NCBI RefSeq assembly: GCF_002072955.1
Contig: NZ_LPUF01000001.1
Coordinates: 2,502,896 to 2,566,895, forward strand
Source of the DNA: Methyloprofundus sedimenti
GTDB lineage: Bacteria > Pseudomonadota > Gammaproteobacteria > Methylococcales > Methylomonadaceae
Length of the DNA stretch: 64,000 nt
Reading direction: 5' to 3'
Shown: positions 36,296 through 43,600 of the stretch, one piece after another
How the letters are laid out: each line of letters starts with the position of its first letter
How positions within the stretch are numbered: the stretch's first letter is position 1
The notes under the pieces: generated by a model
The model's database searches: none
What the model saw: the letters and a program-made list of their open reading frames with translations, nothing else
What the model was told of the DNA's origin: nothing
Position numbers and translations under genes: made by a program

Positions 36296-36757
36296 ATGAA
36301 AAAATTAATAATTCTTATTTTCAGTGCCTTGTTTATCGAGGCGTGTACCGATGAAAACAAGACAAGCACCACGACTCCGGCAACAATCACAAAAGATGTA
36401 CAGTCAACAGAAAGTACAGCAAAACCAGAATCGACAACAGCAGCATGGAATGGCTCAGACCTTTCTGACGCAACGATAAAACAAGTACAGGAAGATAAAT
36501 ACATCTATACCCAGTGCGTTTATAAAGAAGCCCAGAAGCAAGGTTATCAAAAAATTGATTCACGTGTTGCGACTGATGCTGTCATCAAACAATGCGAATC
36601 TGATCTAACAAAAATTCGAACAACGTTTATCAACGCAGGAGTGCCTAAAATTATCGCTGACCGTTATCTGAGAAAAACACGTATTGAAGTAACACGTAAA
36701 ATTTTGCATTCATTAATGTTTGCTGAAGCTGCCCGTAAAGCAGGGGCGACTCAATAG
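36296..36757 (+). CDS. Putative lipoprotein
   Basis: 153 aa. The N-terminus MKKLIILIFSALFIEAC is a lipoprotein signal with a lipobox (IEAC), followed by a Thr/Ser-rich linker (about 18-52) and a helical, Lys-rich domain (about 55-150) with two Cys. No family is recognised. It lies 53 bases before the DUF2760 gene on the same strand and could belong to the same unit; the lipid anchor would put it at the inner or outer membrane facing the periplasm. Confidence 0.75.
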   Translation: MKKLIILIFSALFIEACTDENKTSTTTPATITKDVQSTESTAKPESTTAAWNGSDLSDATIKQVQEDKYIYTQCVYKEAQKQGYQKIDSRVATDAVIKQCESDLTKIRTTFINAGVPKIIADRYLRKTRIEVTRKILHSLMFAEAARKAGATQ

Positions 36758-36810
36758 CACTATTCAATACACACAGCTCCAGCTTATCCTTATAAAACCT
36801 TAAAACACTT

Positions 36811-37512
36811 ATGAATCCCAGCCAATATAAAATCGATCTAGAACTTATTCCCAGCACTTTTGATGCCATTCATGCCTATTTAGCAGCGACTGTATTTGGT
36901 TTGGCACTCACCATAATTATCCTTTTATTTGCCATGTTGATCGGCTTGATGCGCAGAAGTAAACAAGCAACTCAAGCGCTAAAAAATACTACAGAACAGA
37001 CAATTTCTACCCAAATTCCTAAACTTCAACCAGAAGTAAAAGTTGTCGAAAAAATAGTTGAAGTTGAGAAAATTGTAGAAGTTGAGAAAATCATTGAACT
37101 GCCTGCGCCAGAGCCTATCGTATTAAAAGAAACAACCCCGGATGCAGCATTACAATTATTAAATTTATTGCAAAAAGAAGCCCGCTTTATTGATTTTATT
37201 AAAGAAGATGTCAATGCTTATAGCGATGCAGATATTGGTGCTGCGGCTCGGGTTGTACATACGGGATGCAATAAAGTAATCAATGAGCATTTCAAATTAG
37301 CGGCAGTACGCCCTGAATCAGAAGGCAGTAAAATCACATTAAACAAAGGCTTTAATGCAGCAGAAGTTCGCTTAACGGGAAATATCATTGGTCAACCTCC
37401 TTTTACGGGTACTTTAGTCCATAAAGGCTGGCAGGTGTCAGATATTAAACTGCCCAAACTAACAGACGGTCATAATGCTAATATCATCGCAGCTGCGGAG
37501 GTTGAACTATAA
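36811..37512 (+). CDS. DUF2760 domain membrane protein
   Basis: 233 aa with one transmembrane helix (about 29-48, ATVFGLALTIIILLFAMLIG), a linker containing a near-perfect tandem repeat of VEKIVE-type hexapeptides (about residues 72-90, encoded by three repeats of an 18-base unit), and a C-terminal DUF2760 domain (about 108-233; LLNLLQKEARFIDFIKEDVNAYSDADIGAAARVVHTGC is its conserved core). The C-terminus ends AAAEVEL and its stop overlaps the Hsp70 start (TAATG). DUF2760 genes commonly precede divergent Hsp70 genes; its function is unknown. Confidence 0.88.
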   Translation: MNPSQYKIDLELIPSTFDAIHAYLAATVFGLALTIIILLFAMLIGLMRRSKQATQALKNTTEQTISTQIPKLQPEVKVVEKIVEVEKIVEVEKIIELPAPEPIVLKETTPDAALQLLNLLQKEARFIDFIKEDVNAYSDADIGAAARVVHTGCNKVINEHFKLAAVRPESEGSKITLNKGFNAAEVRLTGNIIGQPPFTGTLVHKGWQVSDIKLPKLTDGHNANIIAAAEVEL

Positions 37513-39533
37513 TGGGTTTTTTTGACATGAACAAACTAGTGAATGATTCAGAGCAAACAACTGAGCACGACGCATCACAAAACGAAGAGGTTACATCTAC
37601 AGACCAAGAGTCGGATCTTCAGGCAGATAACGCTAATAACGAAATAGAGGAGGACGCAACAGAGCACTCTTCAGACTCTGCCTTTAATAAGCCTGAAGGC
37701 ACTCATTACTCCATAGGAATCGATTTAGGAACAACACATTGTGTACTTTCCTATGCTGACATATCCGATCCTGATGCCGATGAAATAGTTCAACATGTTC
37801 TACAAATTCCTCAGCTGACAGCTCCAGGCGTAATCGAAGAAAAGGAACAGTTACCCTCTTTTTTATATCAGGCACATGAAGCTGAAATTAATGAAGGAGA
37901 AACAGCCCTGCCCTGGACTGCAAAACCTGATTATTTAGTCGGTGAAATTGCTCGTAATTTAGGCACTAAAACCCCTATTCGTTTAGTGTCTAGCGCAAAA
38001 AGCTGGCTATGTCATGCTGGTGTAGATTGTAAATCAGCGATATTGCCTAATGACGCTCCTGAAGATGTCGAACGTGTTTCACCTTTTCAAGCCAGCTCAG
38101 CCTATTTAGAACACCTTTGCGCTGCCTGGAATAAACAACACCCTGACGCACTGATACAAGATCAGGAAATAACGCTGACTGTTCCCGCTTCTTTTGACCC
38201 GGCTGCTCGGGAATTAACCGCAGAAGCCGCGCAAAATGCGGGCTTAAAAAATGTTATTTTGCTGGAAGAACCGCAGGCAGCATTGTATAGCTGGATCGAG
38301 AAAAGTGAAGGCGATTGGCGTAATCACGTCAATGTAGGCGATATTATTTTAGTTATTGATGTCGGTGGTGGTACTACCGATTTATCACTGATTGCTGTCA
38401 CAGAAGAAAATGGCTCTCTCGGCTTGACTCGTATTGCTGTCGGTGACCACATATTATTAGGTGGTGATAATATGGACCTGGCTTTGGCCTACACGCTAAA
38501 AGCCAAACTGGAACAGAATGGAGGCAAACGCCTGGAAGGATGGCAAATACAGGCATTAACTCATGCTTGCCGCGCAGCTAAAGAAAAAATTCTCAGTGAT
38601 GATGAAGCGGATAATATTCCTATCGTTGTTCCGAATCGTGGATCATCTTTAATTGGCGGTACGCTACGCACAGAGCTTAATCGCGATGAAGTGAATACGG
38701 TTTTACTGCAAGGCTTTCTACCTGAGGTTGCCAGTAATGAACAAGCTGTTAGTCGAGCACGTTCTGGTTTACGTACTGCAGGTTTACCTTATGCACAAGA
38801 TGCCGGAATCACACGACATCTAGCTAGTTTTTTATCACGACAATTAAATGCTGTTGATGAATTAAATGATATTACCCTATCGGAAAATGCCACGTTCATT
38901 CACCCGACTGCAGTATTATTTAATGGCGGTGTTTTAAAAGCCGCACGTTTTGCAGATCGTTTGATGGATGTCATCAACTCATGGTTACAAAATGAACAGG
39001 CACCTGATGCTCGTTTATTAACCGGAGTAGATTTAGATTTAGCTGTTGCGCGTGGAGCTTCTTATTATGGCTATGTGCGTAAAGGAAAAGGAGTCCGTAT
39101 TAAAGGCGGAACAGCTGCCTCTTATTATGTAGGAGTGGAAAGCGCTATGCCGGCTGTTCCTGGCATGCCTCCCGAGATTCAGGCCTTGTGTATTGCTCCC
39201 TTTGGCATGGAAGAAGGCACCGAAGTTGAGTTACCTAATGATGAGTTTGGTGTCATTGTTGGTGAACCAGTTCGTTTCCGTTTTTTTGGCTCTAAAACAC
39301 GCAGAGAAGACAATGTGGGGACCCGTTTAGATTATTGGTCAGATGAAGAGCTAGAAGAACTAGATGAAATAGAAATCACCTTACCTCAAGAAAATCGTAA
39401 AGCAGGTGAAGTAATCCCCGTACATCTTTCGGTCGCCGTCACTGAAATAGGAACATTAGCATTACAAGCTATTTCCAACCAGGATGATAACCGCTGGAAA
39501 ATTGAGTTTGATGTACGTTCCGGTGATGAGTAA
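37512..39533 (+). CDS. Divergent Hsp70-family protein A
   Basis: 673 aa. A very acidic N-terminal extension (about 1-62, Glu/Asp-rich) precedes an Hsp70 ATPase domain: phosphate-1 IGIDLGTTHCVLSYAD (about 67), phosphate-2 ILVIDVGGGTTDLSL, GGDNMDLALA and the adenosine loop LFNGGVLKAARF. The rest (about 540-673) resembles a short beta-type substrate domain and ends without the helical lid of DnaK or an EEVD-type tail. The start overlaps the DUF2760 stop. No dnaJ or grpE is nearby, so nucleotide exchange or a client-delivery partner would have to come from elsewhere or from its neighbours. Confidence 0.9.
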   Translation: MGFFDMNKLVNDSEQTTEHDASQNEEVTSTDQESDLQADNANNEIEEDATEHSSDSAFNKPEGTHYSIGIDLGTTHCVLSYADISDPDADEIVQHVLQIPQLTAPGVIEEKEQLPSFLYQAHEAEINEGETALPWTAKPDYLVGEIARNLGTKTPIRLVSSAKSWLCHAGVDCKSAILPNDAPEDVERVSPFQASSAYLEHLCAAWNKQHPDALIQDQEITLTVPASFDPAARELTAEAAQNAGLKNVILLEEPQAALYSWIEKSEGDWRNHVNVGDIILVIDVGGGTTDLSLIAVTEENGSLGLTRIAVGDHILLGGDNMDLALAYTLKAKLEQNGGKRLEGWQIQALTHACRAAKEKILSDDEADNIPIVVPNRGSSLIGGTLRTELNRDEVNTVLLQGFLPEVASNEQAVSRARSGLRTAGLPYAQDAGITRHLASFLSRQLNAVDELNDITLSENATFIHPTAVLFNGGVLKAARFADRLMDVINSWLQNEQAPDARLLTGVDLDLAVARGASYYGYVRKGKGVRIKGGTAASYYVGVESAMPAVPGMPPEIQALCIAPFGMEEGTEVELPNDEFGVIVGEPVRFRFFGSKTRREDNVGTRLDYWSDEELEELDEIEITLPQENRKAGEVIPVHLSVAVTEIGTLALQAISNQDDNRWKIEFDVRSGDE

Positions 39534-39547
39534 GTAATCCAAACCTA

Positions 39548-39575
39548 CCGTTCCCACACAATGTTGTGGGAACGG
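39548..39575. promoter_or_regulatory. Perfect hairpin between the two Hsp70 genes
   Basis: CCGTTCCCACA (39548-39558) and TGTGGGAACGG (39565-39575) form an 11-bp stem with a six-base loop. It has no T run, so it is more likely an RNA processing or stabilising structure than a terminator. It covers the first possible GTG start (39566) of the downstream gene. Confidence 0.6.
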
Positions 39576-39589
39576 GAAATAATATTATT

Positions 39590-42331
39590 GTGAATAATAA
39601 ATCAGCTCAGTATCATATAGGCATAGACTTAGGCACTACACATACCGTAGTTGCCTATGCTAAAACCCGGCAAAAAAACGCCACTATTCAAATTTTTGAA
39701 ATACAACAGCTGGTTGCGCCTGGTGAAGTATCTACACAAAATTTATTACCCTCAGTTCGCTACCATCCGGCTGAAGGTGAGTTATCTGCCGCAGACATGG
39801 CCTACTCACCCTCCGGTGAAAAAGCAATAATTGGTACTGCCGCCCGGGTTTTAAGTGCAAAAACCCGGGGACGTTTTGTTAGCAGTGCAAAAAGCTGGTT
39901 ATCTCACCCTTCTATTGATCATACCGCTGCCATTTTACCCTGGGGCAGTTCTGAAGATGTATTCAAAATTTCCCCGCTTGATGCCAGTGCCAGTTATTTA
40001 AAACATGTGCGTCAAGTCTGGAATCATCAGTTTCCGGACCAGCTCTTTGAACAACAAAATATCGTTATTACTGTTCCCGCTTCATTTGATGAAGCCGCTC
40101 GTTCATTAACATTAGAAGCTGCAAAGATAGCAGGCCTGCATCACATTCGACTGCTAGAGGAGCCTCAAGCTGTTTGTTACGACTGGTTACGCCGACATAA
40201 CGACAATCTCAAAAATACACTGGATAACATTAAACTCCTGTTAGTATGCGATGTTGGCGGTGGTACCACTGATTTGACCCTGATCAAAATCGATCATGGT
40301 TTGGATGAGCCTCAATTATCACGTATAGGCGTGGGTGATCATCTAATGCTTGGTGGCGATAATATTGACTTGGCTCTTGCTCATCTGGTTGAATCACGTT
40401 TGACGACAGAGAATAAAAAACTATCGGCAGCTGATTTATCTCATTTACTCGAACAATGCCGTATAGTCAAAGAACGCTTGTTAGCGGACGATGCGCCTGA
40501 ACAATTAAATGTCACTTTACTAGGCGGCGGGTCTAAATTAATCGGCGGTACACGTTCGGTAAATTTACACCGCGATGAAGTACAGAAAATCGCTTTAGAT
40601 GGTTTTTTTCCGCTATCAAAACTTACTGATCTACCAGACAAAAAACGCAGTGGCGTCGTTGAATTTGGCCTGCCCTATGCTGCCGAACCAGCTATAAGCA
40701 AACATATTGCCGCTTTTTTAAATACCCATCGGCAAGCTACGCAAAGTGCATTAGCTAATGAAACTATTGTTCCAGATGCTCTGCTATTGAATGGTGGTGT
40801 ATTTCGTAGCCAGCCAATTACGCAGCGCACGATTGACTTAATCAGCTCATGGCGTGGTGCACCGCCAGTACTGTTGGATAACCAGCATCCCGAACTGTCA
40901 GTTGCCTATGGTGCCGTAAGCTATAGTATTGCCCGTGAACATAAAAAAATCAAAATTGGAGGCGGTGCATCACGCAGTTACTTCTTGTTAATAGCTTCTG
41001 AACAAGAACAACAAGGCGTTTGCATCTTACCGCGTGGCAGTGAGGAAGGTAATGAAATTATTTTAACCGATCGCCAATTCTCTCTACGTCTGGGACAGCC
41101 CGTCAGTTTTCATTTAGTCTCATTAACAGGGGGACAGCAGTATAAAGCCGGAGATATTGTCACAATTAATGAAGACTTTCATCCCCTGCCCCCACTAGCA
41201 GTGGCATTTAACCAGCAAAACAGTGATAACAGCTCAGAAGTCACTGTACAATTATCAGTCACCTTATCCGAAGTAGGCACCCTACAAATCCAATGTGTTG
41301 CTATGCAAGATACTTTGCAACGCTGGGATGTACAATTTCAAATCAGAAAAAGCAAGGCCACTCTGCTCGCGAAAGAATTACCTGCCGGCTTTAGCAAAGC
41401 TGTCGAATTAATCGAAAGCATTTTCGGTTCAAAATCTAAAAATATTAACCCGAAATCAGTCAAAAGTTTACGTGCTGATTTAGAAAAATGCTTGGGCCTG
41501 CGTAGCGACTGGTCTAGTCATTTATTGCGTGAATTGTTTTCTGTGTTACTGGAAGCGCGTAAAAATCATCGCCGCTCAGCCAACCATGAGCGAGTCTGGC
41601 TAAGTTTAATCGGTTATTGTTTACGCCCTGGTTTTGGTTACCAATTGGATAATTGGCGTGTCGAGCAACTCTGGAAAAGCTATAGCAATCAAATTCAGTT
41701 TGTAAATGAAACCCAAAACTGGAGCGAATGGTGGACTTTATGGCGTCGTATTTCTGGAGGCTTAGATACAGAGGCACAAGAACTTATTTTTAACGACCTG
41801 GCTAAATATTTAAACCCCGCCTCGGCACGCCTGGGCAATACAGCCAAGCAAAGCAAACAACGGGGCTATGATGACATGGTGCGTCTTGCTGCAGTACTAG
41901 AGCGCTTACCCATAGAACAAAAAACACAATTAGGTGGGTGGTTATTAACACGCCTGCAAAAAGCCAGTGAACCAGCACAAACCTGGTGGGCTGTTGGTCG
42001 CATCGGTGCACGGGTACCTTTTCACGCAAGCATGCATTTTGTCGTGCCTAACGATACAGCATCAAAATGGCTAAAACAAATACTTGAAGTAGACTGGAAA
42101 AAAATACCGCAGGCAGGATTTGCTGCAACCTTAATTGCTCGTATGAGCGGCGATAGAACACGCGACATAGACGATGAACTTCGTGCAAAGGTCATTGAAC
42201 AATTAAAAGCCAGTAAAGCCCCTGTTTCATGGATAGAAATGCTTGAATCAGTTAAGCAACTGGATGCTAGTGAGGAAAAACAGATATTTGGTGAGTCTTT
42301 GCCCCCGGGATTAACCTTAATTAGGAATTAA
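39590..42331 (+). CDS. Divergent Hsp70-family protein B with C-terminal DUF3731-type domain
   Basis: About 913 aa from the GTG at 39590 (VNNKSAQYHIGIDLGTTH); an earlier GTG at 39566 lies inside a hairpin and would add 8 residues. The N-terminal ~390 residues are an Hsp70 ATPase domain (IGIDLGTTHTVVAYAK, LLVCDVGGGTTDLTLI, GGDNIDLALAHL, LLNGGVFRSQP). A beta-rich region follows to about 600, and then about 300 residues of helical sequence with many Trp (WLSLIGYCLRPGFGYQLD, WSEWWTLWRRISGGL), matching the DUF3731 extension of this Hsp70 subfamily. It is paralogous to protein A, and the two are adjacent and co-oriented. Confidence 0.9.
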   Translation: MNNKSAQYHIGIDLGTTHTVVAYAKTRQKNATIQIFEIQQLVAPGEVSTQNLLPSVRYHPAEGELSAADMAYSPSGEKAIIGTAARVLSAKTRGRFVSSAKSWLSHPSIDHTAAILPWGSSEDVFKISPLDASASYLKHVRQVWNHQFPDQLFEQQNIVITVPASFDEAARSLTLEAAKIAGLHHIRLLEEPQAVCYDWLRRHNDNLKNTLDNIKLLLVCDVGGGTTDLTLIKIDHGLDEPQLSRIGVGDHLMLGGDNIDLALAHLVESRLTTENKKLSAADLSHLLEQCRIVKERLLADDAPEQLNVTLLGGGSKLIGGTRSVNLHRDEVQKIALDGFFPLSKLTDLPDKKRSGVVEFGLPYAAEPAISKHIAAFLNTHRQATQSALANETIVPDALLLNGGVFRSQPITQRTIDLISSWRGAPPVLLDNQHPELSVAYGAVSYSIAREHKKIKIGGGASRSYFLLIASEQEQQGVCILPRGSEEGNEIILTDRQFSLRLGQPVSFHLVSLTGGQQYKAGDIVTINEDFHPLPPLAVAFNQQNSDNSSEVTVQLSVTLSEVGTLQIQCVAMQDTLQRWDVQFQIRKSKATLLAKELPAGFSKAVELIESIFGSKSKNINPKSVKSLRADLEKCLGLRSDWSSHLLRELFSVLLEARKNHRRSANHERVWLSLIGYCLRPGFGYQLDNWRVEQLWKSYSNQIQFVNETQNWSEWWTLWRRISGGLDTEAQELIFNDLAKYLNPASARLGNTAKQSKQRGYDDMVRLAAVLERLPIEQKTQLGGWLLTRLQKASEPAQTWWAVGRIGARVPFHASMHFVVPNDTASKWLKQILEVDWKKIPQAGFAATLIARMSGDRTRDIDDELRAKVIEQLKASKAPVSWIEMLESVKQLDASEEKQIFGESLPPGLTLIRN

Positions 42332-42492: not shown

Positions 42493-43107
42493 TCAAAGCC
42501 TGTTCTTTCTAAGCAATACAGGTGTAAAGCGCACAATAAAAGATTGATAAAATACTACCCAGATAATAACTGGAGTAACTGCTGGCAGTATCAATACACC
42601 GAACTGGTAACCCAGAGCAATGCAGTCCATTTGCCATGATGGCAATCTGATATTACCTATCAATTCCGGTGACATTTGTAAAAATAGCACTTTTGTCGAT
42701 TCAAAACCAATCCCCCAGACTTGAATCAGCAGAAACAAAAACAGATTAATAAAGATAACACCCAAAGTCCTAAAAAAACTAAACGGTGAAGCCAAAGTAA
42801 GTGCCAATCCTAGAGGCAAACCATAGCTATATATTAACGGATTAACAGGAATCGGTAATTCTGCAACCATCCCTCTGGGTGTATTCTGTGCGGGTACTGT
42901 CACTTCAGCAATAACCTCTACCAAAGAACCGCTTTGCTCGATCCCGATTATCAGTTTTGGAAATACAGACTGTAACAAAGGTTCAGCTACGCTGATCACT
43001 ATCCATGTTGTTAGATCGGCAAAATAATACCACCCCCAGTAGCACAAAGGTAAACATAGGAAAACCTTAATAATAAAAGCAGTCAAGGGATTAATTTGCA
43101 TGGTCAT
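42493..43107 (-). CDS. Exosortase-associated membrane protein (putative XrtH partner)
   Basis: 204 aa with about five hydrophobic segments and a periplasmic-looking stretch (about 55-90) containing VTVPAQNTPRGMVAELPIPVNP. It overlaps the end of the xrtH-like gene by 17 bases, and such an accessory membrane protein regularly follows exosortase H genes. No catalytic motif is visible. Function beyond this association is unknown. Confidence 0.65.
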   Translation of the reverse strand: MTMQINPLTAFIIKVFLCLPLCYWGWYYFADLTTWIVISVAEPLLQSVFPKLIIGIEQSGSLVEVIAEVTVPAQNTPRGMVAELPIPVNPLIYSYGLPLGLALTLASPFSFFRTLGVIFINLFLFLLIQVWGIGFESTKVLFLQMSPELIGNIRLPSWQMDCIALGYQFGVLILPAVTPVIIWVVFYQSFIVRFTPVLLRKNRL

Positions 43108-43600
43108 TAGCCTCTACTTCCTGGGCAACCGGTAATAGCTTGAGCCACAATAAAAATATAATTAATACATCTAACATGATGAGTGCTTGCCAGATATACA
43201 AATGGGCCCATTCAAAAACATCTTTATTCCATTGACCAAGATAAAACAAAGAAATTATACGCACAATATTAAGCAGCTCCACAGCAAAAAAACCTGTTAT
43301 TATTCCCCAGATTTTATATTTCCAGGGCGACGGGAATGCTAAGATAGCTGCGATTAACACTAAAATAGCTTCAACGCCATTACAGCCTGACTGTATAGAC
43401 ACTGAAAATCCTGAACCAACTTGCTGTAAGATAACGCCGTGTGAAATAACCTGGCCATCAAAAAACTTTACTATCCAAACACTAATATAAGCAATTATTT
43501 CAGTAAACGGAATAATGATATTCTGGTGCACCTTGTTAGATTGTACTATCCAGAACAGACAAATTTGTATGCCCAGAAAATATAAAAAAAACTTATACAC
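43091..43600 (-). CDS. xrtH: Exosortase H (XrtH)
   Basis: Inner-membrane cysteine transpeptidase-like enzyme expected to process proteins bearing a C-terminal sorting signal. The 169-aa, multi-helix protein has the exosortase catalytic triad in order: Cys73 in IQSGCNGVEA, Arg114 in LLNIVRIISLFYLG and His133 in EWAHLYIWQ. XrtH recognises IPTLxxWG-CTERM signals in known genomes. It starts at GTG 43600 with GGGG upstream; no ATG gives the frame. No protein with an IPTLxxWG tail was found in the window, so the substrates must be encoded elsewhere. Confidence 0.82.
   Translation of the reverse strand: MYKFFLYFLGIQICLFWIVQSNKVHQNIIIPFTEIIAYISVWIVKFFDGQVISHGVILQQVGSGFSVSIQSGCNGVEAILVLIAAILAFPSPWKYKIWGIITGFFAVELLNIVRIISLFYLGQWNKDVFEWAHLYIWQALIMLDVLIIFLLWLKLLPVAQEVEANDHAN

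Follow-up and report, generated by a model that had tools for sequence, protein, structure and literature searches.

A conserved gene module of DUF2760 and two divergent Hsp70 proteins, a candidate Hsp70-type ATPase system

Introduction

Canonical Hsp70 allostery works via a hydrophobic linker and J-domain contacts. How, then, might a duplicated Hsp70 pair be driven that carries the ATPase residues, that in all members examined has lost the linker and J-domain elements, and that is linked instead to one partner that is not a J-protein? This question is raised by a locus in a 64,000-nucleotide stretch of the Methyloprofundus sedimenti genome (here called the window; gammaproteobacterial, order Methylococcales, 4.29 Mb), where ilvD and argA are followed on the forward strand by a gene for a small secreted protein, a DUF2760 gene and the genes of two Hsp70 proteins, A and B (Table 1). 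An earlier note, made from the sequence alone, had read these genes as a possible membrane-tethered machine of two Hsp70s, and its four open reading frames (ORFs) were confirmed from the sequence. The core of the locus is a conserved three-gene module of DUF2760, A and B. The reading that is put forward here, tentatively, is that the three proteins make up a single dedicated ATPase system of the Hsp70 type, distinct from DnaK/DnaJ/GrpE, in which a J-protein-independent and membrane-associated pair would have DUF2760 as its dedicated anchor and co-factor. If active, such a system would represent an alternative way of driving Hsp70, and a natural test of which parts of the allostery are dispensable. 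Carriers of the genes include the culturable laboratory genera Vibrio, Massilia and Duganella, in which deletion and biochemistry should be straightforward.

Conservation of the module

The module was surveyed in 299 Pseudomonadota genomes with a completeness of 90% or more and in 140 genomes of Myxococcota, the phylum of one of the loci (L192). Among the Pseudomonadota, DUF2760 was found in 26 genomes, the A profile matched the same 26, and DUF3731, the C-terminal family of B, was present in 25 of them; the remaining 273 all lacked DUF2760, A and DUF3731. In the 26th genome (G056), 85 bases separate A from the end of its contig, and B may be off the contig. Of the 140 Myxococcota genomes, 22 carry DUF2760, and all of these carry DUF3731 too; one further genome, a draft, has a fragment of DUF3731 where a contig ends. 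Fisher tests of co-occurrence gave p values of 5e-38, 1e-35 and 9e-25, which indicate strength only, because the genomes are not independent. The dedicated set of DUF2760, A and B proposed by the earlier note is therefore borne out by near-perfect co-occurrence, mostly in one order, and apart from that single draft no Hsp70 pair without DUF2760 was met.

The order DUF2760-A-B and a common strand are kept wherever contigs permit, in dozens of genera and at least two phyla, and DUF2760 adjoins A in every locus read. In the window the two genes meet in a TAATG junction, where the final base of the DUF2760 stop is also the first of the A start (1 nt overlap), as expected from the translational coupling first suggested; of 126 DUF2760-A gene pairs, 105 have an overlap of 1 or 4 nt. 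Separation of A from B, which had been named as evidence against a linked set, does occur in 5 of the 22 Myxococcota genomes (B about 5 kb downstream in G440, about 16 kb downstream in G423, and on a different contig in G389, G418 and G365), yet both genes are retained there. Since B is kept although detached, the link goes beyond operon inertia. Beyond the three genes, conserved neighbours are lineage-specific, and none was found across lineages. Minus-strand ORFs that cluster over DUF2760 where genomes are GC-rich were rejected as a shadow-ORF artefact.

Loss of B and history of the pair

DUF2760 and A occur without B in 10 of 80 scanned loci (L117-L124, L138, L184), which belong to Thiodictyon, Halochromatium, Thiohalocapsa, Rhabdochromatium, Lamprobacter and relatives (the Chromatiaceae group), and no DUF3731 was found in nine B-less genomes searched whole. 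The minimal unit is DUF2760 with A. The two-Hsp70 machine had to be abandoned as an obligatory arrangement, since the Chromatiaceae group retains only this unit. In a quick tree with Shimodaira-Hasegawa-like approximate likelihood ratio test (SH-aLRT) support, B forms one group (SH-aLRT 99) and the Chromatiaceae A proteins are nested within A; the duplication is therefore the older event, and B was lost in the Chromatiaceae group. A single ancient duplication gave rise to A and B. Within the A tree, Vibrio, Burkholderiales and Methylococcales are each grouped as such. Single distance correlations between A and B (r 0.96) and between A and DUF2760 (r 0.91), calculated without a control gene, carry no weight.

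Hsp70 A and B compared with DnaK

Both proteins match the Pfam HSP70 family (A 4.7e-17, B 6e-20; 39 of 39 A members matched), and are 39% identical to each other and each about 20% identical to the DnaK of the genome. Aligned to DnaK, both span the nucleotide-binding and beta substrate domains, where A ends and B runs on into DUF3731 (PF12531, residues 671-918, 5.2e-107), a part rich in conserved tryptophan. The alpha-helical lid is thus absent from A and its place in B is taken by DUF3731, both as originally described. Residues 13-593 of the B model superpose on DnaK and BiP with Z of 33-37; the Foldseek list for this model is filled by Hsp70 matches and says nothing on the fold of DUF3731, and a sequence search of the PDB with DUF3731 gave no match. 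The alignments used for structure prediction were made without rows from plasmid loci. The acidic N-terminal extension that had been pointed out in A is present here (18 Asp/Glu and 2 Lys/Arg in the first 63 residues) but is lineage-local: the leader of A elsewhere mostly has 6-40 residues, and the long acidic form is seen only in the genus of the window.

A survey of residues in 32 A and 20 B proteins (DnaK numbering) found the ATPase residues T11, K70, E171, D194, T199 and D201 invariant in all of them. N170 is replaced by Glu and T173 by Gln, Leu or Lys in 52 of 52 proteins; both are positions of the J-domain/linker interface of DnaK. D393 is likewise replaced in all 52 (by Thr, Ser, Ala, Ile, Leu, Val or Met), and the linker VLLLD reads I-x-[GAS]-G-x, with x-[GAS]-G at L390-L392. 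R167 is retained in 2 of 32 A and 14 of 20 B proteins. R167, D393 and the linker form part of the J-domain/linker interface (PMC7289447, PMC6843406). As an internal control, DnaK and a second canonical Hsp70 of the same genome retain R167, N170, T173 and D393. A and B thus have complete ATPase motifs and have lost the hydrophobic linker and the J-domain contact residues, and their strong divergence from DnaK, a central point of the earlier note, holds at the level of both overall identity and the linker and J-contact positions.

The absence of a J-domain protein and GrpE, also claimed, is true of the surroundings of the module, as no Pfam DnaJ/J-domain or GrpE match was found in the nine ORFs tested there, but not of the genome, which holds four J-domain proteins and two GrpE genes elsewhere. 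These include dnaK-dnaJ-grpE at C1:1635900-1638887. The second canonical Hsp70 has its own adjoining J-domain gene and GrpE (G000:C1:2204210-2206932; L201, L232, L004, L002).

The DUF2760 protein

The protein matches PF10816 over residues 110-232 (5.7e-55, 184.9 bits against a cut-off of 25). Its model has a helix at 19-58 with a strongly hydrophobic stretch, and a confident domain at 111-212 made of helices followed by a small beta part. The residues R125, D128, F129, G143, H204, G206 and W207 of DUF2760 are invariant. With Foldseek and VIA-align, this model gave nothing above Z 4.7 and no informative solved structure, and a PDB sequence search with the DUF2760 alignment gave no match. A Pfam DnaJ match was not obtained at E<=1, one of 134 DUF2760 proteins contains the letters HPD, and neither a Pfam GrpE match nor an informative structural match of the model was found.

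The N-terminus varies among lineages. One hydrophobic helix is found in Methylococcales and Vibrio, and two in the f48/Bradyrhizobium group. Burkholderiales, Nitrosomonas, Myxococcota and others instead have an amphipathic segment, FFxRLSLAFGxFFxxLxD. The amphipathic segments beat shuffled controls at p<=0.05 in 37 of 68 proteins. All these forms would be compatible with membrane association, which for the amphipathic ones we infer. The membrane anchor ascribed to DUF2760 is therefore supported by the hydrophobic helix in the window, but a transmembrane tether is not universal, the amphipathic segment standing in its place in Burkholderiales, Myxococcota and Chromatiaceae.

Proposed function and alternatives

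In the proposed system, DUF2760 would lie at the inner face of the cytoplasmic membrane, where its conserved domain would bind A and so place A at the membrane, and it may assume part of the role of a J-protein or exchange factor. A and B would act as a pair, with DUF3731 of B possibly serving as a lid, a client-capture element or an exchange element, and through ATP cycling the pair would bind membrane or exported proteins at the membrane surface and let them go again. DUF2760 and A of the Chromatiaceae group would function without B.

Several points weigh against this proposal. Interaction, ATPase activity, localisation and clients are all predicted. The membrane location is read from sequence, and with 37 of 68 amphipathic segments beating shuffles, these segments could dock to a protein instead. 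With R167 present in 14 of 20 B proteins, some of the canonical allostery may survive in B. A J-partner could use new contacts. Because the fold of DUF2760 matches nothing informative, its co-factor role is drawn from gene pairing alone.

Among the alternatives, the one that survives best, though it is considered unlikely, is an ATP-dependent membrane switch or scaffold rather than a folding machine. A and B would then be nucleotide-controlled regulators of a membrane process with DUF2760 as anchor, comparable to the actin-like FtsA/MreB and to Hsp70-like regulators such as StkA of Myxococcus. The absent lid, canonical linker and J-contacts weaken a classical client cycle and so favor such a switch, as do the FtsA/MinD-like amphipathic segment on DUF2760 and the precedent of an Hsp70-like regulator, StkA (PMC4319316). 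However, the beta substrate domain is kept and well aligned in both A and B, and no signalling or cell-shape gene is conserved beside the module across lineages.

It is more doubtful that the ordinary DnaK system has A and B as Hsp110-like or Ssz1-like helpers, which would act in exchange or substrate delivery and be brought to the membrane by DUF2760. The genome does hold DnaK, the second Hsp70, four J-domain proteins and two GrpE, and the Foldseek matches for B also include Sse1 (Hsp110) and a RAC chain, but these two rank under DnaK/BiP and reflect the shared fold. Moreover, DnaK is near-universal, whereas the module is sporadic (26/299) and always occurs as its own set.

Still less probable is a mobile stress or defence cassette of ecological rather than housekeeping value, serving in phage defence or in plasmid or symbiosis stress. 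Its sporadic distribution, its plasmid copies (including Bradyrhizobium plasmids typed conjugative) and its position beside anti-phage genes on a Thiodictyon plasmid all fit a cassette of this kind. However, PADLOC gave no real match, only weak ones to the nucleotide-binding domain and a single weak one to a membrane protein; phage records gave no match; and the A tree is mostly vertical, with the module chromosomal in most cases. One viral-contig match was discarded, as it covers only the low-complexity VEK linker. A chance neighbourhood of unrelated genes, for which no point in favor was found, has next to no probability given the same order and strand in so many genera and the near-perfect co-occurrence in the survey.

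Gene layout and neighbouring genes

Table 1. Coordinates of the module and of adjacent features in the window
Feature	Position	Strand	Evidence
Small secreted (lipo)protein with two conserved Cys; accessory	36296..36757	+	ORF; 26 orthologues, Methylococcales only
DUF2760 protein with a membrane helix at the N-terminus, a linker rich in Val, Glu and Lys, and DUF2760 as C-terminal domain; core part 1	36811..37512	+	ORF, PF10816, model
Hsp70 A: acidic N-terminal extension, nucleotide-binding domain and beta substrate domain, without a lid; core part 2	37512..39533	+	ORF, Pfam HSP70, alignment
Hsp70 B: nucleotide-binding domain, beta substrate domain and C-terminal DUF3731 helical domain; core part 3	39590..42331	+	ORF, HSP70, PF12531, model
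Perfect 11-bp palindrome between A and B; outside the conserved module	39548..39575	.	Sequence

The start of B had first been placed at 39566, but the GTG at 39590 is likelier, because the GTG at 39566 sits within the palindrome between A and B (CCGTTCCCACA-6 nt-TGTGGGAACGG) and because the family N-terminus, which lies about 8 residues ahead of GIDLGTT in the alignment, fits 39590. The palindrome is repetitive extragenic palindrome (REP)-like, and one further exact copy of its arms is present in the genome (G000:C2:273315-273340). Downstream of B and facing it, an exosortase-like gene (PF09721) and a partner ORF are found on the reverse strand (42493-43600), as in some congeners.

Upstream of DUF2760, the ORF that had been called a lipoprotein gene is present, but it accompanies the module in Methylococcales only (all 26 orthologues, with two conserved cysteines), and in several of these proteins the signal peptide is of the ordinary kind and lacks a lipobox. 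In one locus (L068:6300-7402), the secreted-protein ORF runs in frame and stop-free into DUF2760, giving a 384-aa open frame that may be a natural fusion across the membrane; a sequence resembling a ribosome-binding site, AGAAGGGAAAG, ahead of the DUF2760 ATG would also allow separate translation.

Variants of the locus were observed elsewhere. In one genome a small gene, read from sequence as retropepsin-like, lies between DUF2760 and A (L109:7472-7885). A draft Methylococcales genome (G027; L085 and L086) seemingly has two diverged module copies, but with 4% contamination it may be a mixed bin. On pCB82_1, a Bradyrhizobium sp. CB82 plasmid typed as conjugative, the module is found about 1 kb upstream of groES-groEL (L198:10502-19013), and GroEL was found near the module in no other fetched locus tested. 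A Thiodictyon plasmid carries the DUF2760-A pair beside genes annotated as anti-phage (L061:1-14255).

Comparison with known systems

A and B share with the DnaK/DnaJ/GrpE system the nucleotide-binding fold, all the ATPase residues checked and the beta substrate domain, but differ from it in their low identity (about 20%), in the lack of the VLLLD linker and lid, in the replaced J-contacts and in a module without a J or GrpE gene. The best-scoring named Hsp70 models are those of NCBIfam HscA (A 7e-22, B 2e-31), and both proteins stay far under the cut-offs of these models (A/B 77.6/109.6 bits against 620, and 76.7/106.6 against 708.55); the module also lacks iron-sulphur genes. A and B thus fail the tested features of the DnaK and HscA types. 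In yeast, Ssz1/RAC and Hsp110 are divergent Hsp70s acting as half of a stable pair; they are eukaryotic, have other C-terminal regions, and resemble B in the shared fold only.

The module proteins are members of the Pfam families DUF2760 (PF10816) and DUF3731 (PF12531), both listed without function, and in the open-access literature no paper was found that names either family or its Pfam number. The domains are therefore known through Pfam and automatic annotation, and the system, as far as can be told, seems undescribed. A 2021 review lists DnaK, HscA and HscC as the only prokaryotic Hsp70 types (PMC8215388). It is conceivable, though on balance doubtful, that the module represents a further bacterial class beside these three, namely a J-free pair with a membrane-bound DUF2760 in the J-protein or exchange role and DUF3731 in place of the lid. 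HscC of Escherichia coli is thought to act at the plasma membrane via the tail-anchored DjlB and DjlC (PMC8215388), and is, like the system proposed here, a specialised Hsp70 with a dedicated membrane-anchored partner encoded nearby. However, the partner of HscC is a J-protein, whereas DUF2760 has no J-domain Pfam match, and the two systems are set apart here by gene context rather than by comparison with the HscC sequence. By analogy, HscC with DjlB/DjlC would be the nearest functional parallel to DUF2760, A and B, with a non-J partner in place of the J-protein.

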